Source: Candidatus Zixiibacteriota bacterium
Lineage (GTDB): Bacteria; Zixibacteria; MSB-5A5; GN15; PGXB01
Length of the DNA: 46,616 bases
Direction of reading: 5' to 3'
NCBI GenBank assembly: GCA_020058225.1
Contig: JAGVEJ010000045.1
Coordinates: 1-46,616, forward strand
Shown: piece by piece, positions 10,852-37,691 of the stretch
Layout of the letters: each line of letters begins with the position of its first letter
Numbering within the stretch: position 1 is the first letter of the stretch
The notes under the pieces: generated by a model
Databases searched by the model: none
What the model was told of the DNA's origin: nothing
What the model saw: only the letters and a program-made list of their open reading frames with translations
Made by a program: the position numbers and the translations under genes

Positions 10852-12126
10852 ATGGCCGATTATCAACCAGTTCCAGACCAGATTAGGGGCGATATTCTGG
10901 TCGTAGGCGGCGGTATATCCGGAATGACCACCGCCATTGAGGCCGCCGAAGTCGGGAAACATTCCATCCTGGTTGAAATAAAACCCTCAATTGGAGGGCG
11001 AGTCATTTCGACTAATCAGTATTTTCCCAAACTTTGTCCCCCCACCTGCGGCATTGAAATAAACCTAAAAAGAATTAGACTAAATCCTTTTATAAGGATA
11101 ATTACATTGGCCGAGGTTTTGCAGGTTTCCGGCTCGCCGGGCAATTATGAGGTTCAGATTAAGCTAAATCCTCGCTATGTAAATGAGAAATGTACCGCCT
11201 GCGGTGATTGCGCAACGGTATGCGAGATAGAAAGAGATAATGATCTCAATTATGGCCTTGATAAAACCAAGGCAATCTATTTGCCACACCTAATGGCATA
11301 CCCGATGCGTTATGTAATCGACCCTCAATTTGCAAAAGATGAGCGGATGAAAAAATGCGTCGAGGCCTGCCAGTATAAGGCAATTGAGCTTGATATGCAA
11401 CCTCGCACCATAACAGCCAAGGTGGGCGCAATTGTATGGGCCACGGGCTGGAAACCCTATGATGCCACAAAAATCGACAATCTCGGCTTCGGCAAATATA
11501 AAAATATTATCACCAATGTCATGATGGAGAGAATATCATCCCAGACCGGGCCGACTGGCGGAAAAATTGTTCGTCCATCGGATGGCAAAGAAGTCAAGAC
11601 TATCGGCTTTGTACAATGCGCCGGTTCCCGCGATGAAAATCATCTCCCCTATTGCTCAGCAGTCTGCTGTCTGGCCTCCATGAAACAGGCAACCTATGTT
11701 CGCACGCAGTATCCTGAGGCGGATATTCACCTGTTTTATATCGATGTTCGCTCTCCAGGGCGACTGGAAGATTTTTATGTTAAAATGCAAGCTGACCAAA
11801 AATTCTATTTCCACCGCGGCAAAGTTGCCAAGATTACGGAAACGGCCAACGGCAATTTGATGCTTGAGGCCGAGAATACTCTCACCGGAGAAGTCAGTAA
11901 GGTCGAAGTCGATATGGCAGTTCTTGCGGTCGGCATGGTGCCGAATACGGTCGATGCCAAACCGCCTTTGGAAACGACTCTGGATCCATACGGATTTATT
12001 GCGGGAGATTCAGATAAAGGCGTTATCGGAGCGGGAACGGCAATGCTTCCCTGTGATGTTGCTGTATCGGTTCAGCAAGCAACCGGTGCGGCATTGAAAG
12101 CCATTAATATCGCGGGAAGGAGATAG
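10852..12126 (+). CDS. qmoA: QmoA, quinone-interacting membrane-bound oxidoreductase subunit A
   Basis: A 424-residue HdrA-like flavoprotein of the Qmo complex, which carries electrons from menaquinol to APS reductase. The FAD-binding GGGISG is at 19-24. A CxxCxxCxxxC motif (C114, C117, C120, C124) and CVEAC follow. The HdrA-family stretch VQCAGSRDENHLPYCSAVCC lies in the second half. Its length matches known QmoA. The start follows AAGGAG. The qmoB start is 4 bases after its stop. qmoC, normally the next gene, is absent here and found at 34.2 kb instead. Confidence 0.95.
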   Translation: MADYQPVPDQIRGDILVVGGGISGMTTAIEAAEVGKHSILVEIKPSIGGRVISTNQYFPKLCPPTCGIEINLKRIRLNPFIRIITLAEVLQVSGSPGNYEVQIKLNPRYVNEKCTACGDCATVCEIERDNDLNYGLDKTKAIYLPHLMAYPMRYVIDPQFAKDERMKKCVEACQYKAIELDMQPRTITAKVGAIVWATGWKPYDATKIDNLGFGKYKNIITNVMMERISSQTGPTGGKIVRPSDGKEVKTIGFVQCAGSRDENHLPYCSAVCCLASMKQATYVRTQYPEADIHLFYIDVRSPGRLEDFYVKMQADQKFYFHRGKVAKITETANGNLMLEAENTLTGEVSKVEVDMAVLAVGMVPNTVDAKPPLETTLDPYGFIAGDSDKGVIGAGTAMLPCDVAVSVQQATGAALKAINIAGRR

Positions 12127-12129
12127 AAA

Positions 12130-14364
12130 ATGGATTCCAAAATTGGCGTATATATATGCAAAGGTTGCGACATTGCGAAATCAGTTGATGTCGAAAAGCT
12201 TATCAATACAGCTATAAAAGACGGCAAAGTGCCGTTATGCAAGACACATGAGGTTCTCTGCAGTCATGAAGGTATTGAGTTGATCAAGGCCGATATTGGC
12301 GGTGAAGGGATCAACAGGGTGGTTGTTGCCGCCTGCTCCAATCGAGTATTTCCGGAACTATTTGATTTTGGCCAAGATATTCTAACCGATAGAGCCAACA
12401 TCCGTGAATATGTCGTTTGGAGTCACAAACCAAATGACGATGATACTCAGATGATGGCTGAAGATTATATTCGAATGAGTATCGCCCGCATGAAAAGCAG
12501 TGAACCGGCTCAACCTTATACCGAGGAAACCAGCAAGACGATTATGGTTATCGGTGGGGGCATGACCGGTTTGACATCGGCCAAAGCGGCCGCGGATGCC
12601 GGATATCAAGTTGTACTCGTGGAAAAAGAGAGCCAGCTTGGCGGTTGGGCAACAAAATTCGCGAAAGCTTTCCCGAAACATGCTCCTTATCAGGAACTCG
12701 AAGATACCGGATATAAGACATTAGCTCAGGCGGTTGAGTCACATACCAATATCAAAGTGCATAAATCAGCAACTATCGAAAAGACTTCCGGACAACCGGG
12801 GAAATTCGCCGTGAAATTGAGTACCGGTGCAGAATTTAATGTCGGCGCCATAGTACAGGCCACCGGATGGAGACCATATCCAGCGGAAAAACTGACTCAT
12901 TTGGGATACGGAATATCTCCGAATATAATTGCCAATATCGATATGGAAGCAATGGTATCCAATGGCGGAATTAAAAAGCCATCAGATGGGCAATCGATTG
13001 ACAGCATTGTTTTTATTCAATGCGCCGGTTCTCGCGATCAGGAGCATCTTCCCTATTGTTCGGCAGTTTGCTGTCGGGTATCACTCAAACAGGCCAAATA
13101 TGTGCGCGAGAAATACCCTGATGCAAAGATTTATATTATCTACAAAGATGTAAGGACTCCCGCCCAGTCTGAGCTTTTCTATGCTCATATTCAAAATGAT
13201 GATGCCATCTTCATGACCAAGGGAGAAATTGCCGGAGTCTCCAAAGCTTCCGATGGCAAAATTTTGATTGATGTCAAAGAGACTCTTCTTGGTGAAGATA
13301 TTAAGATTAAGGCTGATATGGTGGTTCTGGCGACCGGTATGGTTCCCTCTACCAAGGTCGATGAAGAACCGGTTGCCACGGAGGAAGCTCCTGCCGATGG
13401 ACAACCTCAAGATGGAGTCACGGCAGATGGCAAGAAAGAAGCCGCTGGAGCCGAAAAGGGCGCCAAAATATTAAATCTGACATATCGACAGGGAACTGAT
13501 CTTCCTACGCTCAAATATGGATTCCCTGATTCACATTTTATCTGTTTCCCGTATGAAACGAGACGCACCGCCATCTACGCCGCCGGTGGAGTTCGGGCTC
13601 CTATGGATCTCTCCGCCGCAAGCGATGATGCCTATGGCGCAACTCTTAAAGCAATTCAGGCGGTTGAATCGGTGGCGCGAGGCGCCGCGGTTCATCCTCG
13701 CGCGGGTGATATGAGTTTCCCTGAATTATTCCTGCAAAGATGCACCCAGTGCAAGCGATGCACCGAAGAATGCCCATTCGGCGCACTTGATGAAGATGAA
13801 AAAGGAACGCCTCTTCCCAACCCATTTCGTTGCAGAAGATGCGCCATTTGTCTTGGCGCTTGTCCCGAGAGAATCATTTCCTTCAAAAATTATAATGTCA
13901 ATATGATATCGCAGATGATAAAAGTGATTCATATACCCGATGAATTTGAAGAGAAGCCGCGTATTTTGGCCTTTATCTGCGAGAATGACGCGCTTCCATC
14001 GGTTGATATGGCAGGATTGAAACGCTTGCAGTACAATGCGATGATACGAATCATCCCCCTCAGATGTCTCGGCTCGATGAATATTGTCTGGGTTGGCGAT
14101 GCTCTCGCCAGCGGATTCGACGGCGTTTTGCTGATTGGCTGTAAGAAGGGCGATGATTATCAGTGCCATTTTGTCAGAGGAAGTGAACTGGCTGATACCA
14201 GAATGACCAATGTTCGCGATAAGCTAAAGCAATTGGTGCTTGAAGAAGAAAGAGTGCAGATTCACGAATTGGCCATTTCCGATTATCATAAGATTCCCCA
14301 AATCTTTGATGATTTTCTGGCGACGATCGAAGGTGTCGGCCCCAATCCTTATAAGGGAATGTAA
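12130..14364 (+). CDS. qmoB: QmoB, HdrA/MvhD-like subunit of the Qmo complex
   Basis: A 744-residue flavo-iron-sulfur protein. The N-terminal segment carries CKGCD. The HdrA-like FAD domain has GGGMTG at about 140. A second HdrA signature reads IQCAGSRDQEHLPYCSAVCC. A low-complexity Ala/Glu/Asp/Gly-rich insert lies at about 415-440. Two ferredoxin motifs follow (CTQCKRCTEEC from C538, CRRCAICLGAC from C568). The C-terminal MvhD-like domain includes RCLGSMN and LIGCKKGDDYQC. Together with QmoA and QmoC it should connect menaquinol oxidation with APS reduction, possibly by flavin-based electron confurcation as has been proposed. A strong terminator follows, so qmoAB is a separate two-gene operon. 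Confidence 0.95.
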   Translation: MDSKIGVYICKGCDIAKSVDVEKLINTAIKDGKVPLCKTHEVLCSHEGIELIKADIGGEGINRVVVAACSNRVFPELFDFGQDILTDRANIREYVVWSHKPNDDDTQMMAEDYIRMSIARMKSSEPAQPYTEETSKTIMVIGGGMTGLTSAKAAADAGYQVVLVEKESQLGGWATKFAKAFPKHAPYQELEDTGYKTLAQAVESHTNIKVHKSATIEKTSGQPGKFAVKLSTGAEFNVGAIVQATGWRPYPAEKLTHLGYGISPNIIANIDMEAMVSNGGIKKPSDGQSIDSIVFIQCAGSRDQEHLPYCSAVCCRVSLKQAKYVREKYPDAKIYIIYKDVRTPAQSELFYAHIQNDDAIFMTKGEIAGVSKASDGKILIDVKETLLGEDIKIKADMVVLATGMVPSTKVDEEPVATEEAPADGQPQDGVTADGKKEAAGAEKGAKILNLTYRQGTDLPTLKYGFPDSHFICFPYETRRTAIYAAGGVRAPMDLSAASDDAYGATLKAIQAVESVARGAAVHPRAGDMSFPELFLQRCTQCKRCTEECPFGALDEDEKGTPLPNPFRCRRCAICLGACPERIISFKNYNVNMISQMIKVIHIPDEFEEKPRILAFICENDALPSVDMAGLKRLQYNAMIRIIPLRCLGSMNIVWVGDALASGFDGVLLIGCKKGDDYQCHFVRGSELADTRMTNVRDKLKQLVLEEERVQIHELAISDYHKIPQIFDDFLATIEGVGPNPYKGM

Positions 14365-14383: not shown

Positions 14384-14416
14384 AAAAAGTCCCCTGCTAA
14401 AGGCGGGGGCTTTTTT
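14384..14416 (+). terminator. Terminator of qmoAB
   Basis: A-rich flank, then GTCCCC pairing with GGGGGC, with a loop of about ten bases, then six T. The A5 and T5 flanks extend the stem to about 11 bp. Confidence 0.85.
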
Positions 14417-14802: not shown

Positions 14803-16011
14803 ATGGCGGACAATACCGTAAAAACACCAATGCTTGACGAGCTTGAAAAAGGAAAATGGCCAAGCTTTGTCAAGGAAATCAAGATGGCGGCAAAAAAGAG
14901 CCCCATGGCTCAGGACCTGCTTGGCCAGCTGGAGCAATCCTATAATGAAAAGATAGGTCACTGGAAGCATGGCGGCATCGTAGGAGTTATGGGTTATGGC
15001 GGAGGTGTCATCGGCAGATACTCCGATTTACCCGACAAATTTCCCAATGTATCGCACTTTCACACTATCCGTATCAACCATCCCTCAGGTTGGTTCTATA
15101 CCTCCAAAGCCCTGCGAACGCTATGTGATATATGGGAAAGACATGGTTCCGGTTTGACCAACATGCACGGTTCCACCGGCGACATAATCTTCCTTGGCAC
15201 CAGCACTCCACATCTTGAGCCAATTTTTTCAGAATTGACAAAAGAGGGATTCGACCTTGGCGGTTCCGGTTCTGATGTTAGAACTCCCAGCTGTTGTGTC
15301 GGTCCGGCTCGGTGCGAATGGGCCTGTTATGACACTCTGGCTCTTACCTACGACTTGACAATGTCATTTCAAGATGAACTCCATCGCCCGGCATTTCCCT
15401 ACAAATATAAATTTAAAATGTCCGGCTGTCCGAATGACTGTGTGGCATCGATTGCCCGTTCGGATATGTCAATTATTGGCACCTGGCGTGACAGCATTCA
15501 GGTTAATAAAGATGCCGTGCTTGAGTATGCCAGCAAAGGGATGAACATTCAAAAGGACATAGTCGAAAACTGCCCGGCCAAGTGTATGGAGTGGGATGGC
15601 AAGGAACTTCATATTGAGAATAGTTATTGCCGTCGCTGTATGCATTGCATTAATATCATGCCCAAGGCTCTTCGTCCCGGGAAAGATCGCGGAGCTACCG
15701 TCCTGATTGGCGCAAAAGCCCCGATTATTGAAGGCGCACTCCTTTCTTCCGTGCTGTTCCCCTTCATCAAAATCGAACCCCCTTATAAGCAGATTAAGGA
15801 TGTAGTTGCAAAAATCTGGGATGTCTGGAGTGAGGAAGGAAAGAACCGCGAGCGCATCGGAGAATTTATTCAGCGTGTGGGCCTCGGCAATTTCCTCGAA
15901 GCTATCGAGGTCGAGCCTGTCGCTGAGATGGTTGCGCACCCGCGCGAGAATCCGTATGTCTTCTATGAAGAGTATTTCGAAGAAGACGAGGGTGAAGAAG
16001 AAGAGAAGTAA
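14803..16011 (+). CDS. dsrA: Dissimilatory sulfite reductase alpha subunit
   Basis: A 402-residue DsrA. With DsrB it forms the cytoplasmic A2B2 enzyme that reduces sulfite with siroheme coupled to a 4Fe-4S cluster. Seen directly: the siroheme/cluster motif C-x5-C (CVGPARC) and C-x3-C (CPNDC) in the middle, then an inserted ferredoxin domain with CPAKC and CRRCMHC. The C-terminus is very acidic (EDEGEEEE). Length and order are typical. ATG 14803 follows AAGGAG. dsrB follows after 45 bases. Confidence 0.98.
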
Positions 16012-16056
16012 TTTGTCAACTAGAGAATATTAACTTTATTGCAAATAGAGGAAAAT

Positions 16057-17139
16057 ATGCCTGAAGCAATGCAGGAAAGATTAACCGACATAGGACCTCC
16101 AAAGTATGATAAATTTTTGCCCCCGATAATTAAAGAGAATTACGGCAAATGGGCTTATCATGAGGTTCTCAAACCCGGCGTTATGGTGCATGTCTCCGAA
16201 ACCGGAAAAAAGCTGTTCACGGTACGAGCCGGCTCGCCAAGATTAATCAGCGTGGAAAAAATCCGTAATTATGCCGATCTGGCCGATAAATACTGTGACG
16301 GATATCTTCGTTTTACCAGCCGTAATAATGTCGAATTTCTTCTTACCAAGGAAGAAAATATCGATCCTTTGATAAAGGATTTAAGGACAATTGGTCATCC
16401 GGTGGGCGGAATGCAGAATTCTATCTCCAACATAGTTCATACACAGGGCTGGATTCACTGCCACTCGGCGGCGACAGATGCCTCGGGTATTGTTAAGTCT
16501 GTTATGGATGAGCTGATTGGCCATTTTGAAAATATGGATCTGCCCGGTAAGCTGAGAATCGCCCTCGCCTGCTGTCTGAATATGTGTGGCGCGGTCCACT
16601 GCTCAGATATTGCTATTCTTGGAGTTCACCGCAGACCACCCAAAATCGACCATGAACATCTATATAAGACCTGTGAAATTCCGAGTGTAAGCGCTTCCTG
16701 TCCGACTGCGGCGATTCGACCAGTGGTGGTTAATGGCAAACAATCAGTGGAGGTCATTGAAGAGCGCTGTATGTTCTGCGCCAATTGCTACACGGTTTGC
16801 CCCTCGATGAAACTAAACGATCCGCTTAATGACGGCGTTTCGATTTGGGTCGGCGGTAAAGTCTCCAACGCCCGCCATGAACCGATGTTCTCCAAGCTGG
16901 CAATTCCATTCCTGCCGAACAATCCGCCCCGCTGGCCGGAAGTTACCACGGCAGTGAAGGACCTGGTTGAGCTCTGGGCCAAGAATGCCAGAAAATACGA
17001 AAGAATGGGCGAATGGATTGAGAGAATCGGTTGGCCTAAATTTTTCAGGATGGCCGGTATTGAATTCCGCAAAGAACATATTGACGATTTCAAGCATGCC
17101 GGCTTGACTTTTAAACGGTCAACACATTTAACCTTTTAA
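16057..17139 (+). CDS. dsrB: Dissimilatory sulfite reductase beta subunit
   Basis: A 360-residue DsrB. It has the characteristic [18 protein letters not shown], the cluster motif [16 protein letters not shown], and a ferredoxin domain with CPTAA and [14 protein letters not shown] 16057 is chosen because AGAGGA lies just upstream; an in-frame TTG at 16039 overlaps that ribosome site and is unlikely. dsrD follows after 11 bases. The gene pair is suitable for phylogenetic placement of the host as a bacterial-type reductive Dsr. Confidence 0.98.
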
Positions 17140-17150
17140 GGGGAAATAAA

Positions 17151-17393
17151 GTGGCCAAGACAGCAGAAGAAATAGCGGACGTCATATTTAATATGGTCAA
17201 GGAGGCGACCGGCCTGAAAAAGCTGAAAGCCACCGACCTAACCAAAGCTGTTATTGAATTGCATCCTGATGTTGACAAACAGCTTTGCAAAGATGCCATA
17301 AAAATCCTTATGAATTCCGGAAGATGCGTTTATACATATTTCGGAGGCAGTTATATTGAACTTCCACATAGGGAAAGCGCCGCAAACGATTAA
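17151..17393 (+). CDS. dsrD: DsrD, activator of sulfite reductase
   Basis: An 80-residue winged-helix protein (KTAEEIADVIFNMV at the start; RCVYTYFGGSYIELP near the end, the family signature). DsrD is an allosteric activator of DsrAB and is confined almost entirely to sulfate/sulfite reducers, so it is a main marker for the reductive direction here. The start is GTG at 17151 with GGGGAAATAAA upstream. It lies between dsrB and dsrN as in many sulfate reducers. Confidence 0.95.
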   Translation: MAKTAEEIADVIFNMVKEATGLKKLKATDLTKAVIELHPDVDKQLCKDAIKILMNSGRCVYTYFGGSYIELPHRESAAND

Positions 17394-17419
17394 TTCCGAG
17401 CTGATCGGTATATGCTTCT

Positions 17420-18916
17420 ATGAATGTCAGAATTCCTCGGCTGGTAGTCGCCGGACTCTCCGGCGACTCCGGCAAGACAATAGTTTGCCTGAGTCTTGTT
17501 ACGGCTCTCCGAAAGAAAGGGCTGAAAACTGCGGTATTCAAGAAGGGACCTGATTATATCGACTCAGCATGGTTAACCCGCTTGGCGGGCGCCCTTTGCC
17601 GCAACCTTGATACTTTTATGGTTGAGCCGCAGAATTTATATGATTCATTCATCAACAATACTCGGAATTTTGATATTGCCATTGTTGAAGGCAATCGGGG
17701 AATCTTTGACGGCATGGATATCGAAGGAACTCATAGCACCGCGGGGCTTGCAAAAATATTGCACGCCCCTATTGTGCTGGTGATTAACTGCAGTAAAGCA
17801 ACCAGAACAATTGCGGCCATTGTCAAAGGTTGCATTGAATTTGATTCTGAGATTAAAATAGCCGGTGTGATTCTTAACAATGTCGCCGGTGAACGTCACA
17901 AAAAAGTAATTGCCGGCTCGGTGGAAAAATACACCGGTTTGCCGGTTTTGGGGGCGATTCCGCGACTCACGGAAAATGAGAAGCTGATTCCCGGACGTCA
18001 TCTGGGACTTATTCCCCCCTCGGAATTTGCGACCGATGAAAAATTGGTTGGCTTGCTCTCTGAAATCGCAGAAAAATTTCTTGATGTTGACAGAATGGTT
18101 GAAATAGCCAAAAATGTTGATGATATGCGATTAAATATTCAGCCCGAATTTGAAAAAAAATCGGTTGATGTCAAAATTGGATATTTCAACGATTCTGTTT
18201 TCACATTTTATTATCCCGAAAATCTTGAGGCGCTGAAAAATGAAGGCGCTGAATTGGTAAGGATATCATCATTGAATAATAAATCCCTTCCGGAAATCGA
18301 TGCGCTTTACATCGGAGGCGGATTTCCCGAGACATTTGCCGAGCGTCTGGTGCAAAATCAATCAATGCTTGAATCGGTAAAAAATGCCGCTGAAGGCGGA
18401 TTGCCGATTTACGCTGAATGCGGCGGATTGATTTACTTGTCTCGCTCGCTGATTTTCGAAAACAGAAAATACTTTTTTGCAAATATTTTCCCCATTGATT
18501 TGGAAATGAATAAAAAACCGATAGGGCATGGATATACAACTTTAGTGACAGACAATATCAACCCCTATTTTCCTATCGGAACAATGATAAAAGGGCATGA
18601 ATTTCATTATTCGGGATTATCTGCAAACTGCAGCTCCGAATATAAAACCTGTATGACAGTCAAATCCGGAACCGGCGTGGCCGGAAAAAGGGATGGATTA
18701 TTGTATAAATGCACTTTTGCCGCATATACGCATATTCACGCTGACGGCGCCTTGGGATGGGCGACAGCAATGGTTAAGAATGCGGCAAATTATAAGAAAT
18801 ATCGTTTAAGAAATAATCGTAGTACAAATATGGATTCAGACACGAATGTAAATGAGCGTGATTTTCCCTGTTACGAAATAGCTGAAGAAATCAATCGCGG
18901 CGTTTCAGCGGGGTGA
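17420..18916 (+). CDS. dsrN: DsrN, cobyrinate a,c-diamide synthase-like amidase
   Basis: A 498-residue CbiA/CobB-type glutamine-dependent amidotransferase. The N-terminal ATP-binding domain has GLSGDSGKT, KKGPDYID and VEGNRGIFDG. The C-terminal class I glutaminase domain has YIGGGFPE, the nucleophile in YAECGGLIYL, and HEFHYS. In dsr clusters this protein is thought to convert siroheme to the siroheme-amide of DsrAB. Its place between dsrD and dsrL and the absence of other cobalamin genes nearby support that use over a cobalamin role. About 55 residues at the C-terminus (KKYRLRNNRSTNMD...) follow the glutaminase domain and have no recognised function. Confidence 0.92.
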   Translation: MNVRIPRLVVAGLSGDSGKTIVCLSLVTALRKKGLKTAVFKKGPDYIDSAWLTRLAGALCRNLDTFMVEPQNLYDSFINNTRNFDIAIVEGNRGIFDGMDIEGTHSTAGLAKILHAPIVLVINCSKATRTIAAIVKGCIEFDSEIKIAGVILNNVAGERHKKVIAGSVEKYTGLPVLGAIPRLTENEKLIPGRHLGLIPPSEFATDEKLVGLLSEIAEKFLDVDRMVEIAKNVDDMRLNIQPEFEKKSVDVKIGYFNDSVFTFYYPENLEALKNEGAELVRISSLNNKSLPEIDALYIGGGFPETFAERLVQNQSMLESVKNAAEGGLPIYAECGGLIYLSRSLIFENRKYFFANIFPIDLEMNKKPIGHGYTTLVTDNINPYFPIGTMIKGHEFHYSGLSANCSSEYKTCMTVKSGTGVAGKRDGLLYKCTFAAYTHIHADGALGWATAMVKNAANYKKYRLRNNRSTNMDSDTNVNERDFPCYEIAEEINRGVSAG

Positions 18917-18952
18917 ACAGGCTAACTTTTCTGCATACAAGAGAGTGATACT

Positions 18953-20635
18953 ATGGCAAAGATTGTGAAAAAAGAGAAGAAGGGACTAAAAGGCTTATCT
19001 CGCGCATCAGGATCATCGAGCGTTGAAACTTCTCCCCTTCGTCCGAAATTTGTGGAAAAACTTCCTCCCTGTATCCACAACTGCCCGAATCATAATCAGA
19101 TTCGGAAAATAATCATGACATTGTCCAAGACTGAGGAATATGGCAAAACCTACGATCAGACCATGGAGGAAGCATGGAATCTTTTTATGGAGACAACTCC
19201 ATTTCCATCAACTATGGGGCGCGTCTGCCCACATCCATGCGAAGACGACTGCAACCGCTCTGCCATTGATGGCGGCGTTGCCATAAATAGTCTTGAAAGA
19301 TTTATTGGCGATTTAGGTCTTCAGAAGAACTTTATCCCAAAGAAATTGACCGAAGACAAAAGGGCCGAAAAAATTGCCATCATCGGTTCCGGCCCTGCCG
19401 GTATGTCTTGCGCATATCAGCTGGCCCGCCGTGGTTATGGCGTGACTGTATTTGAAGCTTTCCCCAAAGCGGGCGGTATGCTTCGCTACGGTATTCCGGA
19501 TTATCGCCTTCCCCAAGATACTCTTGACGGCGAAATCAATCGGATATTGGCCATGGGGGTTGAGTTGAAGCTCAATACCATGGTTGGGAAAGATATTCCC
19601 TATGAGACTTTGCAAAAAGAATATAAGGCAATTTTTGTCGGGATCGGAGCTCACAGAGGATTACAACTTGGCGTGAAGGGCGAGGATGCAAGCAATGTTT
19701 ACACCGGCACTGATTTCCTTCACCGAATCAATTGCGGTGATAAGGTAGAAGTCGGCGATCACGTGGTAGTCATCGGCGGCGGCGATACCGCTATCGATGC
19801 GGCTCGCGTGGCTCGCAGACTTGGCGCCAAATCAACCATTCTATATCGCCGTACCAGAGCCGAAATGCCTGCCATAAGCGAAGAAATTGAAGGCGCTTTG
19901 GAAGAGGGAGTCAATATTGAGTTCCTCGCCGCCCCAATTGAGATTGCAAAAAATAGCGATAAGGCGATCAGCATGAAATGCCAGCGTATGCAGTTAGGCG
20001 AACCGGACGCATCCGGCCGTCGTCGTCCCGTGCCAATTGATGGCGATGTATATGACCTTCCATTCACCACACTAATTGCGGCCATCAGTCAGGAGCCTGA
20101 TTTCACAGGAGCCGAAAATCTGAAGGAAGGGCGAGACTGGATTAAGACCGATGAAAAATTTAAAACCAAAATGGATAACACCTATTCGGGCGGCGACAAC
20201 ATTGGATTGGGCATTGCCGTAACTGCCATATATCATGGACGCAAAGCGGCCGAGGCCATTCATGAAATGATCACCGGCGAGCCAATGATAGATCTTCCCC
20301 TTCAAGATATTATCAAGCATGACAAGATGAAACTTTCTTATTATGAGCCAAAAGAAAAGGCCAAACCTCAGCATATGCCGGTTGATGATAGATTTGCCAA
20401 AATGGATGCAGAGATTGTCAAGACCCTTTCTGAGGCTGAAGCTATCGCCGAAGCCAAGAGATGCTTGAGTTGCGGTATGTGCTTTGACTGCGGGTCATGC
20501 TGGAGTTATTGCCAGGATAACGCCATTCACAAACCGCCGGTTAAGGGTCAGGCATATACATTTAAGATGGAATTCTGCAATGGGTGCAAGAAATGCGCTG
20601 AAAACTGCCCTTGCGGATATATTGAGATGCATTAA
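18953..20635 (+). CDS. dsrL: DsrL, NAD(P)H:acceptor oxidoreductase
   Basis: A 560-residue flavo-iron-sulfur protein related to the small subunit of glutamate synthase. The N-terminal cysteine segment has CIHNCPNH and CPHPCEDDC. The FAD site GSGPAG is at about 145, and the NAD(P)H site GGGDTAIDAARVARRLGA at about 275. A C-terminal ferredoxin region contains CLSCGMCFDCGSC (from C504) and CNGCKKCAENC. DsrL acts with DsrAB and passes electrons to or from NAD(P)H. It is essential in sulfur oxidisers, and a reductive version (DsrL-2) occurs in some sulfate reducers; the company of dsrD points to the latter. It is shorter than the roughly 650-residue oxidiser form. Confidence 0.9.
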   Translation: MAKIVKKEKKGLKGLSRASGSSSVETSPLRPKFVEKLPPCIHNCPNHNQIRKIIMTLSKTEEYGKTYDQTMEEAWNLFMETTPFPSTMGRVCPHPCEDDCNRSAIDGGVAINSLERFIGDLGLQKNFIPKKLTEDKRAEKIAIIGSGPAGMSCAYQLARRGYGVTVFEAFPKAGGMLRYGIPDYRLPQDTLDGEINRILAMGVELKLNTMVGKDIPYETLQKEYKAIFVGIGAHRGLQLGVKGEDASNVYTGTDFLHRINCGDKVEVGDHVVVIGGGDTAIDAARVARRLGAKSTILYRRTRAEMPAISEEIEGALEEGVNIEFLAAPIEIAKNSDKAISMKCQRMQLGEPDASGRRRPVPIDGDVYDLPFTTLIAAISQEPDFTGAENLKEGRDWIKTDEKFKTKMDNTYSGGDNIGLGIAVTAIYHGRKAAEAIHEMITGEPMIDLPLQDIIKHDKMKLSYYEPKEKAKPQHMPVDDRFAKMDAEIVKTLSEAEAIAEAKRCLSCGMCFDCGSCWSYCQDNAIHKPPVKGQAYTFKMEFCNGCKKCAENCPCGYIEMH

Positions 20636-20692
20636 ACCTGAAAATTGAGAAAAATTAAATAAATTAAATGTAACAATTTCGGAGGTATAACA

Positions 20693-21010
20693 ATGCCGAT
20701 ATTTGAGCAGGGCGATGTTAAGATTGATGTTGACGAAGATGGTTTTATGGAAGAGCCGGAACAGTGGAATGAAAAGGTAGCTATGGCGCTGGCCACCACT
20801 GAGGGCGTAAACGAACTGACCGAGAGACACTGGAAACTTGTCAACTATCTTAGAGATTATTATGCAAAATTCGGAATAGCTCCCATGATTCGCAAGCTGT
20901 GTAAAGAAACCGGATTTTCTCTTAAGGAAGTCTATGAAATGTTTCCATCCGGACCGGCCAAAGGCGCCTGCAAAGTAGCGGGATTGGCCAAGCCGACCGG
21001 CTGTGTATGA
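20693..21010 (+). CDS. dsrC: DsrC sulfur carrier
   Basis: A 105-residue DsrC/TusE-family protein that receives sulfite-level sulfur from DsrAB as a DsrC trisulfide and is then reduced by DsrMKJOP. Both redox cysteines of a true DsrC are present on the C-terminal arm (C93 in GACKVAG and C104 in PTGCV), so it is not a TusE or RspA-type variant. CGGAGGT precedes the ATG. A hairpin terminator follows. Confidence 0.97.
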   Translation: MPIFEQGDVKIDVDEDGFMEEPEQWNEKVAMALATTEGVNELTERHWKLVNYLRDYYAKFGIAPMIRKLCKETGFSLKEVYEMFPSGPAKGACKVAGLAKPTGCV

Positions 21011-21160: not shown

Positions 21161-21694
21161 ATGTTAAATGATCTTCTAACTAAAAAGAAAAATGCAATTC
21201 TCAAACGATGGTTTCAATCAATTATTGATACTTATCATCCCGATGCCGCCAACTTTCTTACAAAACAAAAAGACCGCTTTGCAAATCCTGTCGGATATAC
21301 TTTAACCGCTGAAACCGAAAATATCTTTAATGCCCTGATTGCCGGAGATTTTACGGAGCCTACAGTATCCTCACTTGAAAATATAATCAGAATTCGTTCG
21401 GTGCAGGAATTCTCTCCATCTCAAGCGGTATCTTTTGCATTCTTTCTGAAGAAAGCCATCAGAGAAGAGCTTAAGCCGGAATTGAAAGACGTCAAAATGC
21501 TTGAAGAGCTAACGAATTTTGAAACTACTATTGATCGTCTGGCATTGATTGCTTTTGATATTTATTCGGCTTGCCGCGAAAAGCTTTATGACATAAAAGT
21601 CAAAGAAATAAAATCTCGGTCATATAAAATCATGGAAAGGACAAACATATTTATCGGAAATACAGAGCAGGAGGAAAATAATGACAATTCCTGA
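21161..21694 (+). CDS. RsbRD N-terminal-like protein preceding dsrM
   Basis: A 177-residue all-helical soluble protein resembling the RsbRD_N family (N-terminal module of stressosome sensor proteins), here without any STAS domain. Characteristic stretches are LKRWFQSIIDTYHPDA, FANPVGYTLTAE and RSVQEFSPSQAVSF. Such genes are commonly found in front of dsrMKJOP in sulfate reducers, function unproven. The dsrM start is 30 bases downstream with GGAGGAAAT in between, so it is in the dsrMKJOP operon. Confidence 0.82.
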   Translation: MLNDLLTKKKNAILKRWFQSIIDTYHPDAANFLTKQKDRFANPVGYTLTAETENIFNALIAGDFTEPTVSSLENIIRIRSVQEFSPSQAVSFAFFLKKAIREELKPELKDVKMLEELTNFETTIDRLALIAFDIYSACREKLYDIKVKEIKSRSYKIMERTNIFIGNTEQEENNDNS

Positions 21695-21724: not shown

Positions 21725-22717
21725 ATGAATATTTTCCTCTCCCTCATTGCCGTACTGGTTTTGATCTTAATTGCTTGGGTTGGGGCGGGCGCCGCCAATT
21801 TGCAATTTATATTCGGTATGATTATGCCGATCATTGGGCTTATGCTTTTTCTTGGCGGCATTGTTTACCGAGTAATTAAATGGGCCCGAGCGCCGGTTCC
21901 ATTTCACATACCAACATCATGCGGCCAGCAAAAAAGCCTGACATGGATGCAATCAAGCAAGCTGGATAATCCAAGCAGTTCTTTAGGCGTCATCGGACGC
22001 ATGTTGCTTGAAGTTCTCTTTTTCCGCTCCCTTTTCAGAAACACCAAAATGGAATTAAAAAATGGCCCGAAACTTGTTTATGGTTCGGCCAAATATCTCT
22101 GGTTGGGAGCTCTGGCATTTCACTGGTCATTTTTGATTATAGTAATAAGGCATTTTCGCTTCTTTACCGAGCCGATACCATTCTTTGTGAATTTTATGAG
22201 TAGCCTTGATGGTTTTTTCCAAATAGGAGTGCCAGTTTTGTACCTAACTGATGCTCTGATTGTCGGAGGATTGACATACTTATTTTTCAGACGTGTGGTT
22301 ATTCCCCAGCTGAGATATATTTCACTTTTTTCAGATTATTTCATCTTATTTAACATTCTTGCGATTGTCATAACCGGTATATTGATGAGATATTTTACCA
22401 AGGTTGATTTGATTTTGGTCAAACAGTTGACTCTTGGTTTCTTTAGTTTTAATCCGGTTATTCCAGAGGGAATCGGCTCGATTTTTTATATTCATCTTTT
22501 CCTTGTCAGCGCATTACTGACCTATTTCCCTGCCAGCAAACTGGTGCACATGGCGGGAGTTTTTCTTAGTCCGACAAGGAATCTGGCCAACAACAGCCGA
22601 ATGAAAAGACATATCAATCCATGGAATTACCCTGTAAAAGTGCATACTTATGAAGAGTATGAAGATGAATTCCGGGATTTGATGAAGGGCGCCGGACTAC
22701 CATTGGAGAAGGAATAG
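21725..22717 (+). CDS. dsrM: DsrM, NarI-like cytochrome b subunit
   Basis: A 330-residue membrane protein with about six transmembrane helices, a NarI-like diheme cytochrome b that oxidises menaquinol in the DsrMKJOP complex. Histidines within helices (GALAFHWSFLIIVIRHFRFF, SIFYIHLFLVS, SKLVHMAGVF) fit heme ligation. A cytoplasmic loop with MKRHINPWNYPVKV lies near the end. The dsrK start is 4 bases after the stop, indicating close coupling. Confidence 0.95.
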   Translation: MNIFLSLIAVLVLILIAWVGAGAANLQFIFGMIMPIIGLMLFLGGIVYRVIKWARAPVPFHIPTSCGQQKSLTWMQSSKLDNPSSSLGVIGRMLLEVLFFRSLFRNTKMELKNGPKLVYGSAKYLWLGALAFHWSFLIIVIRHFRFFTEPIPFFVNFMSSLDGFFQIGVPVLYLTDALIVGGLTYLFFRRVVIPQLRYISLFSDYFILFNILAIVITGILMRYFTKVDLILVKQLTLGFFSFNPVIPEGIGSIFYIHLFLVSALLTYFPASKLVHMAGVFLSPTRNLANNSRMKRHINPWNYPVKVHTYEEYEDEFRDLMKGAGLPLEKE

Positions 22718-22721
22718 CGAC

Positions 22722-24338
22722 ATGTCAGAACGTTTCGATAAAAAACCGGATGAATTGGTACAAATAGATCACAAGCCGCCGCGCAAGAGCTGGATGGACC
22801 CCAAAGTGGAATTCCGAAGGGGATTTTTTAACTACTCGGCCAATCCCAAATCGGTGGAATATTTGGGTCTCCCCTATGCGCGTAAATGGCAACCGACCGA
22901 TGCCGACTGGAAGTTGCCCCCAAATTGGAAAGAAATAATTCTTGACGGTTTGCGGGAACGAATTCATAGATTCCGCTCACTCCAGCTTTTTATGGATATC
23001 TGCGTTCGTTGCGGAGCCTGCGCTGATAAATGCCATTATTTTATCGGTTCCGGCGACCCCAAAAATATGCCGGTCATGAGAGCAGAACTACTTCGCTCGG
23101 TCTATAGAAAAGAATATACAGCGGCCGGAAAAATCATGGGGGAAATGGCCGGCGCACGAGAGCTAACGGTCGATGTCCTGAAAGAATGGTTTTACTATTT
23201 CTTCCAGTGTACCGAATGCCGACGTTGCTCGGTTTTCTGTCCGTATGGTATCGATACCGCCGAAATCACCATGGTTGGGCGTGAGTTGTTGAATCTTGTG
23301 GGATGCGACATCGACTGGATCACAACGCCGGCGGCGAATTGCTTCAGGACAGGAAATCACCTCGGCATTCAGCCACATGGATTCAAGGACAGCGTCGAAT
23401 TTGCGATTGATGATCTTGAAAGCATTATCGGCATCAAAACAGCGCCATCAATCAACCGCAAAGGGGCTGAAATCCTATTTGTGGTGCCATCAGCCGATTA
23501 CTTTGGCGATCCACATTATTTTGGATTCCTTGGTTATATGGCGTTATTCCATGAAATCGGACTGGATTACACCTTCAGCTCATTCGCCTCGGAGGGAGGC
23601 AATTTTGGGCTTTTCCACTCGCATGAGATGATGAAGAGGTTAAACTCTAAGATTTACATGGAAGCCAAAAGATTGAAGGTTAAATGGATTATCGGCGCCG
23701 AATGCGGCCACATGTGGCGGGTGCTTCATCAATATATGGATACCATGAATGGCCCAGCCGATTTCCTTGAGGAACCTGTTTCTCCTATCACCGGCACCAA
23801 ATTCGAGAATGCCAAAACCACCAAGATGGTGCATATCGCCGAATTCACGGCAGATCTTATCAAAAACGGCAAACTCAAGTTTGATCCGACCCGCAACGAC
23901 GCCTATAAAGTCACTTTCCATGATTCCTGCAATCCTGCGCGAGCGATGGGACTTTTGGAAGAACCACGCTATGTCCTGAAAAATGTCTGTAATTATTTTT
24001 ATGAAATGCCGGAGAATACTATCAAAGAGCAGACTTTCTGCTGTGGAAGCGGGTCAGGTCTTGGAACTGATGAGAATTTGGAAATGCGTCTTCGCGGCGG
24101 ATTCCCTCGTGGAAATGCCGTGAAGTTTGTTAAGGATAAGTATGGTGTCAATATGCTCTGCTGTGTTTGCGCCATTGACAAAGCGACTTTACCGGCCGTT
24201 GTCGATTACTGGGCCGGTGATGTCGGCGTCTGCGCTCTCCATGAATTGGTGGGGAATGCCCTCATTATGAAGGGTGAAAAGGAAAGGGATACTGACCTCC
24301 GCGGTGAACCGCTGATTGGAAAGGAGGGTGGCAAATAA
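22722..24338 (+). CDS. dsrK: DsrK, catalytic HdrD-like subunit
   Basis: A 538-residue cytoplasmic subunit of DsrMKJOP that reduces the DsrC trisulfide. Two ferredoxin motifs, CVRCGACADKC (from C94) and CTECRRCSVFC (from C163), are followed by the CCG-type site with HDSCNPARAMG, FCCGSGSGLG and LCCVCAIDK that holds the special 4Fe-4S cluster. Length is typical. The stop TAA shares its last base with the start of dsrJ. Confidence 0.96.
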   Translation: MSERFDKKPDELVQIDHKPPRKSWMDPKVEFRRGFFNYSANPKSVEYLGLPYARKWQPTDADWKLPPNWKEIILDGLRERIHRFRSLQLFMDICVRCGACADKCHYFIGSGDPKNMPVMRAELLRSVYRKEYTAAGKIMGEMAGARELTVDVLKEWFYYFFQCTECRRCSVFCPYGIDTAEITMVGRELLNLVGCDIDWITTPAANCFRTGNHLGIQPHGFKDSVEFAIDDLESIIGIKTAPSINRKGAEILFVVPSADYFGDPHYFGFLGYMALFHEIGLDYTFSSFASEGGNFGLFHSHEMMKRLNSKIYMEAKRLKVKWIIGAECGHMWRVLHQYMDTMNGPADFLEEPVSPITGTKFENAKTTKMVHIAEFTADLIKNGKLKFDPTRNDAYKVTFHDSCNPARAMGLLEEPRYVLKNVCNYFYEMPENTIKEQTFCCGSGSGLGTDENLEMRLRGGFPRGNAVKFVKDKYGVNMLCCVCAIDKATLPAVVDYWAGDVGVCALHELVGNALIMKGEKERDTDLRGEPLIGKEGGK

Positions 24339-24724
24339 TGTATGACGCAGGGAAAATAATAACCGGAATAATCATTTTCCTGGTTTTAATGACTTCGCCA
24401 TTCTGGCTTAACATTGCCAGCGGCAAAGGGTCATATAAACCTGAGATAAAAATTGCCACCGAGGAGAAGCAGTGCGTGGCTGACACCGATTACATGAAAG
24501 CGGCCCACATGGACCTTATCTATGAATGGCGCGATCAGGTTGTCAGAAACGAGAAGAGAATATACACTTCTTCCAACGGCAAAACATATAATATGAGTCT
24601 CACAAAAACATGTATGAACTGCCATTCCAATAAATCCGAATTCTGCGATCGCTGTCACAGTTATGTCGGGGTAACTCCTTATTGCTGGGATTGCCATGTC
24701 GAGCCAAAGGAGGTTGTCCAATGA
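24338..24724 (+). CDS. dsrJ: DsrJ, triheme cytochrome c
   Basis: A 128-residue periplasmic cytochrome anchored by an N-terminal signal/transmembrane segment (about 6-26). Three CxxCH heme sites are seen: CMNCH (92-96), CDRCH (103-107) and CWDCH (116-120). C46 in EEKQCVAD corresponds to the conserved cysteine reported as the unusual distal heme ligand of DsrJ, and is retained. It overlaps dsrK by one base and dsrO by ATGA. Confidence 0.95.
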   Translation: MYDAGKIITGIIIFLVLMTSPFWLNIASGKGSYKPEIKIATEEKQCVADTDYMKAAHMDLIYEWRDQVVRNEKRIYTSSNGKTYNMSLTKTCMNCHSNKSEFCDRCHSYVGVTPYCWDCHVEPKEVVQ

Positions 24725-25497
24725 GTTTTGACAGAAGAAAATTTATCAAGATCGCCGGTCTGACAACAATTGTTACTCTTACCGGTAAGCCTGTTTTTGA
24801 TGCCATTGCCGCCGATTCGCCATTAAATGTTTCAACAGAACCCAATCGCTTAACCGCAAAAAGATGGGCAATGGCGGTTAATACAAAAAAATGCCTCGAA
24901 AAAGAAGGGTGCACTGATTGTATTACGGCCTGCCATCATATCCATAATGTTCCTGATTTTGGCAATCCTAAAGATGAAGTCAAATGGATATGGCATGAAA
25001 AATACGAGAATGCTTTTCTCGACCAAGAAAATGAATATATGGAAGAAAAGCTGAAGGACAAACCGGTTTTGGTTTTCTGCAATCACTGCGACAATCCTCC
25101 TTGCGTCCGGGTTTGCCCAACTCAGGCGACTTTCAGACGCGAGGATGGCATAGTTATGATGGATTGGCATCGCTGTATTGGTTGTCGCTACTGTGTTGCC
25201 GCCTGCCCTTACGGTTCACGCAGTTTCAATTGGCGCGACCCGCGGCCGTTTATTAAGGAAATCGTTCCGGATTTTCCCACAAGGACTCGCGGCGTGGTTG
25301 AGAAATGCACTTTCTGCGATGAGCGACTTGCCATCGGCCTCCAGCCTGCATGTGTTGAGGCTTGCAAAGAAAAGGCTCTGGTATTTGGCGACTTGGAAGA
25401 CCCGAAATCGGAAATTCGGGAACTGCTGAAGGCCAATTTCAGCATCAGGCGGAAACCGGCCCTTGGAACTCAACCTGAAGTGTACTACATAGTGTGA
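24721..25497 (+). CDS. dsrO: DsrO, periplasmic ferredoxin-like subunit
   Basis: A 258-residue Tat-exported iron-sulfur protein. The twin-arginine signal (SFDRRKFIK) is at the N-terminus when ATG 24721 is used, with AAGGAGG 5 bases upstream; a longer frame from 24682 would bury the signal. The cysteine groups (CTDCITAC, CNHCDNPPCVRVC, CIGCRYCVAAC, CTFCDERL...CVEACK) match the four-cluster arrangement of the family. It passes electrons between DsrJ and DsrP. Confidence 0.95.
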   Translation: MSFDRRKFIKIAGLTTIVTLTGKPVFDAIAADSPLNVSTEPNRLTAKRWAMAVNTKKCLEKEGCTDCITACHHIHNVPDFGNPKDEVKWIWHEKYENAFLDQENEYMEEKLKDKPVLVFCNHCDNPPCVRVCPTQATFRREDGIVMMDWHRCIGCRYCVAACPYGSRSFNWRDPRPFIKEIVPDFPTRTRGVVEKCTFCDERLAIGLQPACVEACKEKALVFGDLEDPKSEIRELLKANFSIRRKPALGTQPEVYYIV

Positions 25498-25504
25498 GGT
25501 AATT

Positions 25505-26662
25505 ATGTTAGAAAAAGCTCTATATGGTGATAGACGATATTGGACTTGGGTAATATTCCTTATGACCCTCATGGGTATTGGATTCCTGTTTTACCTTCGC
25601 CAGCTTGAATATGGTTTGGGTATTACGGGACTGAGCCGCGATGTTACATGGGGATTCTATATCGCCCAATTCACTTTCTTGGTTGGTGTGGCGGCTTCGG
25701 CGGTGATGGTTGTCTTGCCCTATTATCTGCATGATTATAAAGTATTCAGCAAAATGACCATTCTTGGAGAATTCCTCGCAATCTCCGCTGTGACAATGTG
25801 CGTGCTCTTTGTTGTAATTGATCTTGGTCAGCCGATGCGGGCCGTAAATATAATTCTCCATCCAACGCCAAGTTCCATCATCTTTTGGGATTTGATCGTG
25901 CTTAATGGATATCTCGTTTTGAATGCGCTAATCAGCCGGGTTACTCTTGATGCTGAACGGAAAAGCATTGCCCCGCCAAAGTGGATAAAGCCCATAATTA
26001 TCCTGTCCATACCATGGGCCATCAGTATTCATACGGTAACGGCATTTATTTATTGCGGATTGGGCGGTCGTCCTTTCTGGTTTACAGCCATTCTGACTCC
26101 GAGATTTTTGGCGTCGGCATTCGCATCCGGCCCGGCATTTTTGATTTTGCTGGTTATGATTTTAAAGAAATTCACCAAATTTGATCCCGGCAAAGAACCA
26201 ATTTTCAAACTGAGTGAAATTATTACCTATGCCATGTCATTAAATGTATTTTTTATACTGCTTGAATTATTCACCGCTTTTTATAGCGGAATGCACGAAC
26301 ATCAGCAGAGTTTTCTATACCTCTTCTTTGGAATCGATGGTCATGCTCGTTTGGTGCCATGGATTTGGACATCAATAATTCTGGCGGTCTTCTCCCTGAT
26401 ACTCCTTTTCAATCCCAAGACACGAAGAAATGAGAAATTTTTGACAATTGCCTGTATATCGGTATTTTTATCAATATGGATTGATAAGGGTATCGGTATG
26501 GTAGTTGCGGGGTTTGTACCGTCGCCGCTTGGAAAAGTCACCGAATACTGGCCCACAATACCTGAGGCTTTAATTGCCCTTGGAGTCTATGCGCTGGGAT
26601 TCTTATTGATTACGATATTTTATAAGATCGCCCTATCGGTGCGAGGTGAGGTGGCTAAGTAA
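25505..26662 (+). CDS. dsrP: DsrP, NrfD-like quinone-interacting membrane subunit
   Basis: A 385-residue membrane protein with about ten transmembrane segments, NrfD/PsrC family. It contains no heme motif, as expected. It begins 7 bases after dsrO and is the last gene of dsrMKJOP before a hairpin. With DsrJ and DsrO it forms the periplasm-facing module of the complex. Confidence 0.94.
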   Translation: MLEKALYGDRRYWTWVIFLMTLMGIGFLFYLRQLEYGLGITGLSRDVTWGFYIAQFTFLVGVAASAVMVVLPYYLHDYKVFSKMTILGEFLAISAVTMCVLFVVIDLGQPMRAVNIILHPTPSSIIFWDLIVLNGYLVLNALISRVTLDAERKSIAPPKWIKPIIILSIPWAISIHTVTAFIYCGLGGRPFWFTAILTPRFLASAFASGPAFLILLVMILKKFTKFDPGKEPIFKLSEIITYAMSLNVFFILLELFTAFYSGMHEHQQSFLYLFFGIDGHARLVPWIWTSIILAVFSLILLFNPKTRRNEKFLTIACISVFLSIWIDKGIGMVVAGFVPSPLGKVTEYWPTIPEALIALGVYALGFLLITIFYKIALSVRGEVAK

Positions 26663-26690
26663 TTAGAAGCAGAACAAACTTTAATCTATA

Positions 26691-26724
26691 TGAGGGGTTG
26701 TCTTTCGCAACCCCTCAAGTTTTC
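26691..26724 (+). terminator. Hairpin after dsrP, overlapping the next gene's leader
   Basis: Perfect 10-bp stem TGAGGGGTTG / CAACCCCTCA (26691-26700, 26708-26717) with a 7-base loop, then AGTTTTCT. It is probably a terminator, but the T-run is short and the following ATG is only 9 bases from the stem. The left arm holds the only purine-rich GAGGGG near that start. Confidence 0.6.
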
Positions 26725-26725
26725 T

Positions 26726-29654: not shown

Positions 29655-29659
29655 TCATA

Positions 29660-34207: not shown

Positions 34208-35332
34208 CTAATCTTTTGCCTTTCGGCCAATGGATCGCGCATACACCAAAGCCAAAGTCCTATAGAACATGTGGGCGAATTTTAAGTATGGCGCGTACCA
34301 TAATAAGAAAAATACAACCACCAGATGGATAAAATAAACGGAATATGCCAAGGCGGCAATATCTGCCAATCTGATAAATTGAGTCAAAAGTCCGGTGATG
34401 AAAACCAGATATAGCATTACAAGGAAAAGCCAATCCGGATATCCATTTGCGCCCACTTGATCATGGCCTTTCACCCGACGAAAAACAAGAATTGTCAGGC
34501 CGGCAAATCCGGCAATACCGCTGGCATTACCCAGCCATTTAATGGGGTGGCTTAGCGGAATTGGCGATTCGAGACCAATCAAAACCAGCCCAAGTACAGC
34601 CAGTCCGGCGGTTATCATAGCGCCGATAAACCCAAAAAACACAAGAGCATGGGCGAAAAATCTCGGTTTATTGGCGGTGCATTTGGCAAAATTCATGTGG
34701 GAAATAATATCTTTAATAGTCATAATTAAGCTTGAAACAAAGCCGGGTCCGGATTGATCCGGTGTCATTGATTGCAGACCCTTCCAGAATTTCCAAAGTC
34801 CCATAAAGGCAAATAGAAATATGAGAGCATTACCTCCCATAAATAAACCTTCAATCCATCCATGAGGAATAAATTTGGAGAATTTTATTTCTTCACTCAT
34901 AAAACCAAACTCGCCACCCGTGAAAGAAAGCATTAATACGCCAATAACTATTATCGGTACCAATAATAACAACGGCAAAGCCTTTGGGCTTGCCAAAGCT
35001 TTCCCCATAAATGAGGGAAAAGAATAATGTTCATAGACATAGGCTCGAATGGCGGCCATGACATCACCCGGTTTTGCCCCACGGGGGCAATAAATGGTGC
35101 AGTCATTACACTGGTAACATAACCAGAGATCGGGGTCTTTTATCAATTTATCAAATTGACCCCACTGAGCCATAATCATTTCTTTCCGCGGAAATGGCTT
35201 GTGCGCTGGTGAAAGATTGCAAACAACGGAACAAGTGGCGCATTGAAAGCATTTCTTCAATGTATCACCACCGGCCTGTTTGACAGCTTTAATAAACTTA
35301 AGGTCAGGTTCTATTATTTGCCCTTGAGACAT
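34208..35332 (-). CDS. qmoC: QmoC, HdrC/HdrE-like membrane subunit of Qmo
   Basis: A 374-residue fusion of an HdrC-like ferredoxin domain (CFQCATCSVVC at about 28-38; CYQCNDCTIYC at about 72-82) and a cytochrome b-like membrane domain with about six helices. It binds menaquinol and passes electrons to QmoAB and on to APS reductase. GAGGAG precedes the ATG. Unusually, it is separated from qmoAB by 20 kb and transcribed divergently from sat-aprBA, with its own promoter and operator. Confidence 0.95.
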   Translation of the reverse strand: MSQGQIIEPDLKFIKAVKQAGGDTLKKCFQCATCSVVCNLSPAHKPFPRKEMIMAQWGQFDKLIKDPDLWLCYQCNDCTIYCPRGAKPGDVMAAIRAYVYEHYSFPSFMGKALASPKALPLLLLVPIIVIGVLMLSFTGGEFGFMSEEIKFSKFIPHGWIEGLFMGGNALIFLFAFMGLWKFWKGLQSMTPDQSGPGFVSSLIMTIKDIISHMNFAKCTANKPRFFAHALVFFGFIGAMITAGLAVLGLVLIGLESPIPLSHPIKWLGNASGIAGFAGLTILVFRRVKGHDQVGANGYPDWLFLVMLYLVFITGLLTQFIRLADIAALAYSVYFIHLVVVFFLLWYAPYLKFAHMFYRTLALVYARSIGRKAKD

Positions 35333-37250: not shown

Positions 37251-37691
37251 ATGCCAAGTTATGTGATCCCCGATAAGTGCGACGGGTGCAAGGCGCTGGA
37301 TAAGACCGCATGCCAGCACATTTGTCCCAACGACCTCATGGTCTTGAATAAAGACCTTATGAAGGCCTACAATCGCGCTCCGGAGATGTGCTGGGAGTGC
37401 TACAGCTGTGTCAAGATTTGCCCGACTCAGGCAATTGAGGTGCGCGGTTATGCGGATTTTGTCCCGATGGGCGCCAGCGTTACTCCCCTGAGAAGCTCCG
37501 ATAGCATCATGTGGACGGTAAAATTTAGAAACGGTACGCTTAAGAGATTCAAATTCCCGATTCGGACCACCCCCGAGGGTACCGCGGTCCCTAACGGCGG
37601 ATTTAATGAAGGCAAGGGTGATTTGAAGAGCCATGAATTGTACACCGAGCCAGAGTCTTGCGGCATGGCCAACATCCCACCAGTAAAGTAA
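37251..37691 (+). CDS. aprB: APS reductase beta subunit
   Basis: A 146-residue ferredoxin-type subunit with two 4Fe-4S motifs (CDGCKALDKTACQHIC and CWECYSCVKIC), followed by the C-terminal extension that embraces AprA (MGASVTPLRSSDSIMWTVKFRNG). It accepts electrons, likely from Qmo, and hands them to the FAD of AprA. It begins 50 bases after sat, with aprA 18 bases downstream. Confidence 0.97.
   Translation: MPSYVIPDKCDGCKALDKTACQHICPNDLMVLNKDLMKAYNRAPEMCWECYSCVKICPTQAIEVRGYADFVPMGASVTPLRSSDSIMWTVKFRNGTLKRFKFPIRTTPEGTAVPNGGFNEGKGDLKSHELYTEPESCGMANIPPVK

Follow-up and report, generated by a model that had tools for sequence, protein, structure and literature searches.

In which direction does a dissimilatory sulfite reductase (dsr) locus work when it encodes, next to DsrAB, both the flavoprotein DsrL and a small protein in the place of DsrD? 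This question is raised by contig JAGVEJ010000045.1 of a Candidatus Zixiibacteriota draft genome (GCA_020058225.1; 2.9 Mb, 94% complete), whose 46,616 nucleotides are referred to here as the window and provide all coordinates. With a probability of roughly 0.8, we regard it as a complete dissimilatory sulfate-reduction locus of a Zixibacteria-type host, in which DsrL of type 2 (DsrL-2) would pass electrons from NADPH to DsrAB, quinol would feed electrons in via DsrMKJOP, and a winged-helix protein would take the role of DsrD.

A probable sulfate-reduction locus with a complete gene set

Gene content and gene order, the motifs of DsrL and its place in a tree, and the conservation of the unit throughout the phylum are direct observations. 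dsrAB, dsrC, dsrMKJOP, sat, aprBA, and qmoABC all lie on the window contig, while DsrE, searched alone as a proxy for DsrEFH, does not rise above the cut-off anywhere in the genome. Open reading frames and family scans of the window place qmoAB, followed by dsrAB through to dsrMKJOP, on the plus strand. The genes at the center of the question are the following:

14803..16011, plus strand: dsrA (TIGR02064, 585 bits)
16039..17139, plus strand: dsrB (TIGR02066, 504 bits)
17151..17393, plus strand: dsrD-position gene, 80 aa, winged helix; begins 11 bp after dsrB and has no PF08679 match
17420..18916, plus strand: cbiA/dsrN, cobyrinate a,c-diamide synthase homologue, presumed siroheme amidase (TIGR00379, 418 bits; conserved position)
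18953..20635, plus strand: dsrL, 560 aa, DsrL-2 type, predicted NAD(P)H:acceptor Fe-S flavoprotein (NF009410, 578 bits; motifs; tree)
20693..21010, plus strand: dsrC, 105 aa, two C-terminal redox cysteines (PF04358, 1.5e-37; translation)

The best solved relative of DsrB is the D. vulgaris-type DsrB 2v4j_B (472 bits). An earlier note on this DNA had joined dsrL, dsrD, and dsrC in one operon. dsrL and dsrC are indeed real and follow dsrAB at tight spacing, with intergenic gaps of 11–57 bp from dsrA to dsrC and 150 bp behind dsrC, while dsrD is present by position, size, and fold only; moreover, that note had left out cbiA/dsrN, which separates the dsrD-position gene from dsrL.

Motifs place DsrL in the DsrL-2 type

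The 560 residues of DsrL carry the FAD, NAD(P)H, and ferredoxin sites that had been described for it. The dinucleotide motifs GSGPAG at position 145 and GGGDTA at position 275 correspond to FAD and NAD(P), respectively, N-terminal cysteines are found at positions 40, 44, 92, 96, and 100, and the C-terminus holds eleven cysteines, fitting a two-cluster ferredoxin domain. Within the NAD(P)-binding domain, a YRR motif (Y298-R299-R300) is invariant in 14 aligned DsrLs. Likewise invariant in this 14-member alignment are S27 and R30, which stand in for two N-terminal Fe-S cysteines and were matched by spacing to Cys39 and Cys42 of NfnB. Published diagnostic features give these positions their meaning: YRR marks DsrL-2 and NADP(H), and an arginine replaces an N-terminal cysteine in those forms that accompany reductive DsrA, while DsrL-1A is marked by an insertion of ~32 aa in the NAD domain and a longer linker (PMC7596348). 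Both DsrL-1A features are absent from the 560-aa protein and from its alignment with dsr-linked homologues, a comparison made from the text of PMC7596348. Typed by its sequence on these published motifs, the window DsrL belongs to DsrL-2, and to DsrL-2C by context.

In a maximum-likelihood tree, the protein falls among 43 dsr-linked DsrLs that form one clade (support 100), which is separate from the genome's own NfnB, from NfnB/GltA-type proteins, and from flavoproteins linked to pyruvate:ferredoxin oxidoreductase. The relatives inspected from a plasmid search were all of the latter two kinds and served as outgroups; dsrAB was not found near any of the nine outgroup loci checked. A grouping with glutamate synthase small subunits, named beforehand as a result that would speak against DsrL, is thus not seen; for a grouping with the oxidative DsrL-1 clade, also named beforehand, the motifs are the evidence against. 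Scans of viral contigs with D. vulgaris DsrD, the DsrD-like family, and DsrL returned no useful relatives.

The unit is conserved throughout the phylum

Most relatives show the order qmoAB-dsrAB-(80-aa gene)-cbiA-dsrL-dsrC-rsbRD-dsrMKJOP, as far as their contigs extend. Most of the same order also occurs in LCP-89 and in a metagenome-assembled genome (MAG) of Ignavibacteriota, and a MAG placed by NCBI in Myxococcota has dsrL and cbiA swapped. Among 133 genomes of the phylum, dsrB was found in 51 (49 above the cut-off and two truncated), and the 80-aa family occurs in exactly these 51, plus one fragment at a contig edge. DsrL was called in 49 of the 51 dsrB-bearing genomes. In one of the two others (G096), the contig ends inside cbiA; in the other (G004), dsrL enters a run of N, and a loss of dsrL was rejected as the break is this N run in the assembly. 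No DsrE of the DsrEFH type exceeded the cut-off in this set (0/133), although the E. coli control matches.

The protein encoded after dsrB is probably a highly diverged DsrD

The 80-aa gene behind dsrB is a real and conserved gene. Its product has no match to the Pfam DsrD model (PF08679) up to E = 10, and none of 25 homologues, including those of LCP-89, Ignavibacteriota, and Myxococcota, matches at E ≤ 10, while D. vulgaris DsrD, checked against PDB 1UCR and used as positive control, scores 118 bits. A six-frame search of the 133 genomes with PF08679 yielded no match, but no control genome matched either, and the negative result is therefore based on hmmscan of the proteins themselves, in which the positive control did match. 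Profile comparisons agree. 1UCR is not among the PDB hits of the family profile at E ≤ 10; the profile built from alignment A1 (the window protein and 25 homologues) scores 1.9 bits against 1UCR directly, equaled or surpassed by 187 of 2000 shuffles; and the hhalign score of 11.6 between the family and 1UCR is reached by 41 of 200 shuffles.

The AlphaFold (AF2) model is a winged helix with a pLDDT of 89. Foldseek matches it to DsrD (1wq2) with TM scores of 0.61/0.73, the higher value by DsrD length, among many other winged helices. A conserved C-terminus, YTYFGGS(F/Y)xE(L/I)PH(R/K)EGAAND, runs through alignment A1, and many family members show weak matches to winged-helix models, the best being TBPIP at 3.5e-05. 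In DsrL-2-bearing lineages the gene has been named dsrD, and shared hydrophobic residues have been reported for Acidobacteria (PMC6018796). The identity as "DsrD" rests on position, size, the predicted winged-helix fold, and the strict co-occurrence with dsrB; most likely, the protein is a highly diverged DsrD.

Proposed electron flow

Published biochemistry suggests by analogy how the preference for NADPH, the path of the electrons, and the function of the DsrD-like protein most likely combine. Hydride from NADPH would be transferred to the FAD of DsrL, and the Fe-S clusters of DsrL would pass the electrons to DsrAB, which would convert sulfite to the DsrC-bound trisulfide. DsrMKJOP would form a separate entry for electrons from quinol, reducing the DsrC-trisulfide and freeing sulfide. 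The winged-helix protein encoded after dsrB would most likely take the role of DsrD, binding and activating DsrAB. In Allochromatium vinosum, DsrL forms a complex with DsrAB, and DsrL-2 of Desulfurella amilsii is specific for NADP(H) (PMC7596348; Loffler 2020). Since the latter protein is NADP(H)-specific and YRR is kept in the window DsrL, NADPH is to be expected as the cofactor in place of NADH. The NAD(P)H-fed route to DsrAB proposed in the earlier note is accordingly the role to be expected for a DsrL-2 recognized by tree and motifs (PMC7596348), with NADPH as the probable donor. Its quinol-fed route from DsrMKJOP to DsrAB is inexact, as DsrMKJOP feeds the DsrC-trisulfide.

Direction and identity weighed against alternatives

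The direction of the pathway is beyond proof from sequence, and several points weaken the reading given above. The genome encodes an SQR-like protein, whose gene has a lone DsrE-like gene and one for an ArsR-rhodanese regulator beside it; DsrL-2 is also present in some established sulfur oxidizers (PMC7596348); the typing as DsrL-2 combines motif and context, with tree references that contain no DsrL-1, 2A, or 2B; and the DsrD-like protein resembles DsrD in sequence no more than expected by chance. An oxidative locus, used for sulfide or sulfur oxidation or for disproportionation with DsrL carrying electrons from DsrAB to NADP+, would further agree with the reversibility of DsrL in vitro (PMC7596348) and with Desulfurivibrio, for which PMC7596348 cites sulfide oxidation with a reductive-type gene set. 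We nevertheless hold this direction to be improbable. The reductive direction is favored because DsrE exceeds the cut-off in no genome of the 133, the window's own among them; moreover, it is alongside reductive DsrAB that DsrL-2 with arginine in place of the Fe-S ligand has been reported (PMC7596348), and DsrL-2C adjoining reductive DsrAB has been read as a reductive marker (PMC10591310). The same observations lend no support to the reversible pathway that had been suggested for this locus. The SQR-like gene and the lone DsrE-like gene elsewhere in the genome leave some room for such a pathway, but the dsr locus itself holds nothing in favor of reversal.

Two further alternatives concern the identity of single proteins. 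The 560-aa protein shares its flavoprotein superfamily with glutamate synthase small subunits and NfnB-type proteins, and its best solved relatives include NfnB/GltD-type chains; that it is one of these, caught in the operon by accident, is nonetheless extremely unlikely, given the fully supported split in the tree, a separately encoded NfnAB pair in the same genome, and the position of dsrL between cbiA/dsrN and dsrC, which is fixed across the phylum. Less remote, though still unlikely, is an unrelated winged-helix protein in the post-dsrB position, such as a DNA-binding protein that regulates the operon. The failure of PF08679 in all 25 homologues, an A1 profile score within the range of shuffles, and the weak winged-helix matches fit such a protein, as does the Foldseek ranking, in which Fur proteins and the linker-histone (histone H1) domain stand above DsrD; the fold match is not specific for DsrD. 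Against it stand a place and size identical to those of DsrD, a compatible fold, the perfect co-occurrence with dsrB in 51/51 genomes, and the use of the name dsrD in the literature together with the shared hydrophobic residues described for Acidobacteria (PMC6018796).

Surrounding genes and host genome

The remaining genes and elements of the locus are listed below:

10852..12126, plus strand: qmoA, HdrA-like flavoprotein (HdrA-family matches; synteny, lying 5' of dsrA in most relatives with a contig that extends to it)
12130..14364, plus strand: qmoB (HdrA/MvhD-type matches; synteny)
14391..14409, plus strand: terminator-like hairpin in the qmoB-dsrA gap, 8 pairs and T-run (consensus scan only)
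21161..21694, plus strand: RsbRD_N-domain gene, likely dsrT (PF14361, 3.8e-20; immediately 5' of dsrM)
21725..26662, plus strand: dsrM, dsrK, dsrJ, dsrO, dsrP (M, K, J, and P above cut-off with NF038037, NF045796, NF038038, and NF045798, respectively; dsrO by translation and synteny)
26691..26717, plus strand: terminator-like hairpin after dsrP, 11 pairs (consensus scan only)
34208..35332, minus strand: qmoC (NF038018, 432 bits; cut-off 300)
35974..37200, plus strand: sat (NF003166, 489 bits; TIGR00339, 370 bits)
37251..37691, plus strand: aprB (TIGR02060, 203 bits)
37710..39578, plus strand: aprA (TIGR02061, 906 bits)

The hairpin after dsrP likely marks the end of the dsr transcript and, as a further hairpin follows qmoB, dsrA to dsrP may form one transcription unit. 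The name dsrT for the RsbRD_N-domain gene is inferred from position (PMC10504309). Directly downstream, positions 26690–28411 encode a CoA-disulfide reductase-like protein with a C-terminal rhodanese domain, which stands behind dsrP in nearly every relative with a contig that extends this far; since the hairpin lies inside its called 5' end, translation probably starts near 26726. Translations of the adjacent stretch (28437–31842) identify hemA, a precorrin-2 dehydrogenase gene, and a fused uroporphyrinogen methyltransferase/synthase gene, which presumably supply siroheme to DsrAB. At the contig start, positions 28–1173 encode a truncated DsrK/HmcF/TmcB-like protein, possibly part of a second membrane electron-transfer complex.

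Among species genomes, Candidatus Zixiibacteriota supplies the closest named matches of DsrL, the nearest at 63–69% identity. Some named Zixiibacteriota contigs also carry the locus of genomes that are grouped in the order or class of the window: DsrL rows are identical in the pairs L061/G091 and L053/G132, and L051 equals G043 in dsrL coordinates, length, and score. On these sequence matches the host is a Zixibacteria-type uncultured bacterium. On another contig of the same genome (C77; L079:2345-6237), genes for NfnA and NfnB adjoin NADP-isocitrate dehydrogenase; NfnAB and this dehydrogenase are plausible sources of NADPH for DsrL-2. A further contig (C235; L078:4924-7261) clusters the SQR-like protein, of type III, with the lone DsrE-like protein and the ArsR-rhodanese regulator, possibly for a sulfide or persulfide response in a putative sulfate reducer. 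The weak DsrE match in the genome is this lone gene adjoining the SQR-like gene, and was rejected as dsrEFH.

Relation to known systems

The joint presence of DsrL and DsrD is no surprise, as the literature already describes it in Acidobacteria, Bacteroidota/Kapabacteria, Zixibacteria, and further groups. Ca. Thermonerobacter has the order dsrAB-dsrD-dsrN-hyp-dsrL-dsrC (PMC6338057), such clusters also occur in marine Acidobacteriota (PMC8528874), the pairing of DsrL-2C with DsrD has been generalized with Zixibacteria named (PMC10591310), and an evolutionary scheme has been provided (PMC11406059). With the Ca. Thermonerobacter and acidobacterial clusters (PMC6338057; PMC6018796; PMC8528874), the window shares the order of dsrAB, D, N, L, and C as well as dsrTMKJOP and sat/apr/qmo. 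In contrast to them, it has qmoAB right upstream of dsrA, with qmoC apart, and no gene intervenes between dsrN and dsrL.

Like other DsrL-2/DsrL-2C systems (PMC7596348; Diao 2023, PMC10591310), the window combines YRR, the arginine in place of an N-terminal ligand, and the lack of DsrL-1A insertions with a dsrAB read as reductive and a dsrD-position gene, as listed explicitly for Zixibacteria (PMC10591310). It is a new genome that differs in nothing of kind, and its dsrD-position protein fails the Pfam DsrD model. The N-terminal Fe-S domain, the FAD/NAD(P) domains, and the C-terminal ferredoxin are shared with the oxidative DsrL-1A of A. vinosum; the window protein differs from it in having YRR, in lacking the ~32-aa NAD-domain insertion and the long linker, and in a genome with no dsrEFH above the cut-off, DsrE serving as proxy. 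The dsrD-position protein resembles D. vulgaris DsrD (1UCR/1WQ2; PF08679) in its ~80 aa, its winged helix, and its place after dsrAB, whereas in the wing and C-terminal region the window family has YTYFGGSxxELPH and D. vulgaris has YWSSGSTTMYGL.

Thus, DsrD together with DsrL-2(C) in reductive Zixibacteria clusters is already published, and the window is an ordinary member of the described kind. The new point is that the dsrD-position protein does not match DsrD, and this alone may be useful to specialists. A tentative proposal, which we consider doubtful, is that the post-dsrB proteins of DsrL-2C operons form a family separate or far diverged from PF08679 DsrD and co-adapted with DsrL to NADPH-fed DsrAB. 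If true, there would be two kinds of sulfite-reductase activator, one in classical sulfate reducers devoid of DsrL and one in DsrL-2C lineages, and the second kind would escape Pfam-based dsrD surveys. dsrD is a widely used marker of the reductive direction, yet it is assigned here by position to a protein that fails the standard DsrD model. For the phylum as a whole, the locus represents a further, well-preserved case of DsrL-2 fixed in a reductive dsr operon and supports the view that DsrL-2C marks NADPH-fed sulfite reduction rather than sulfur oxidation.

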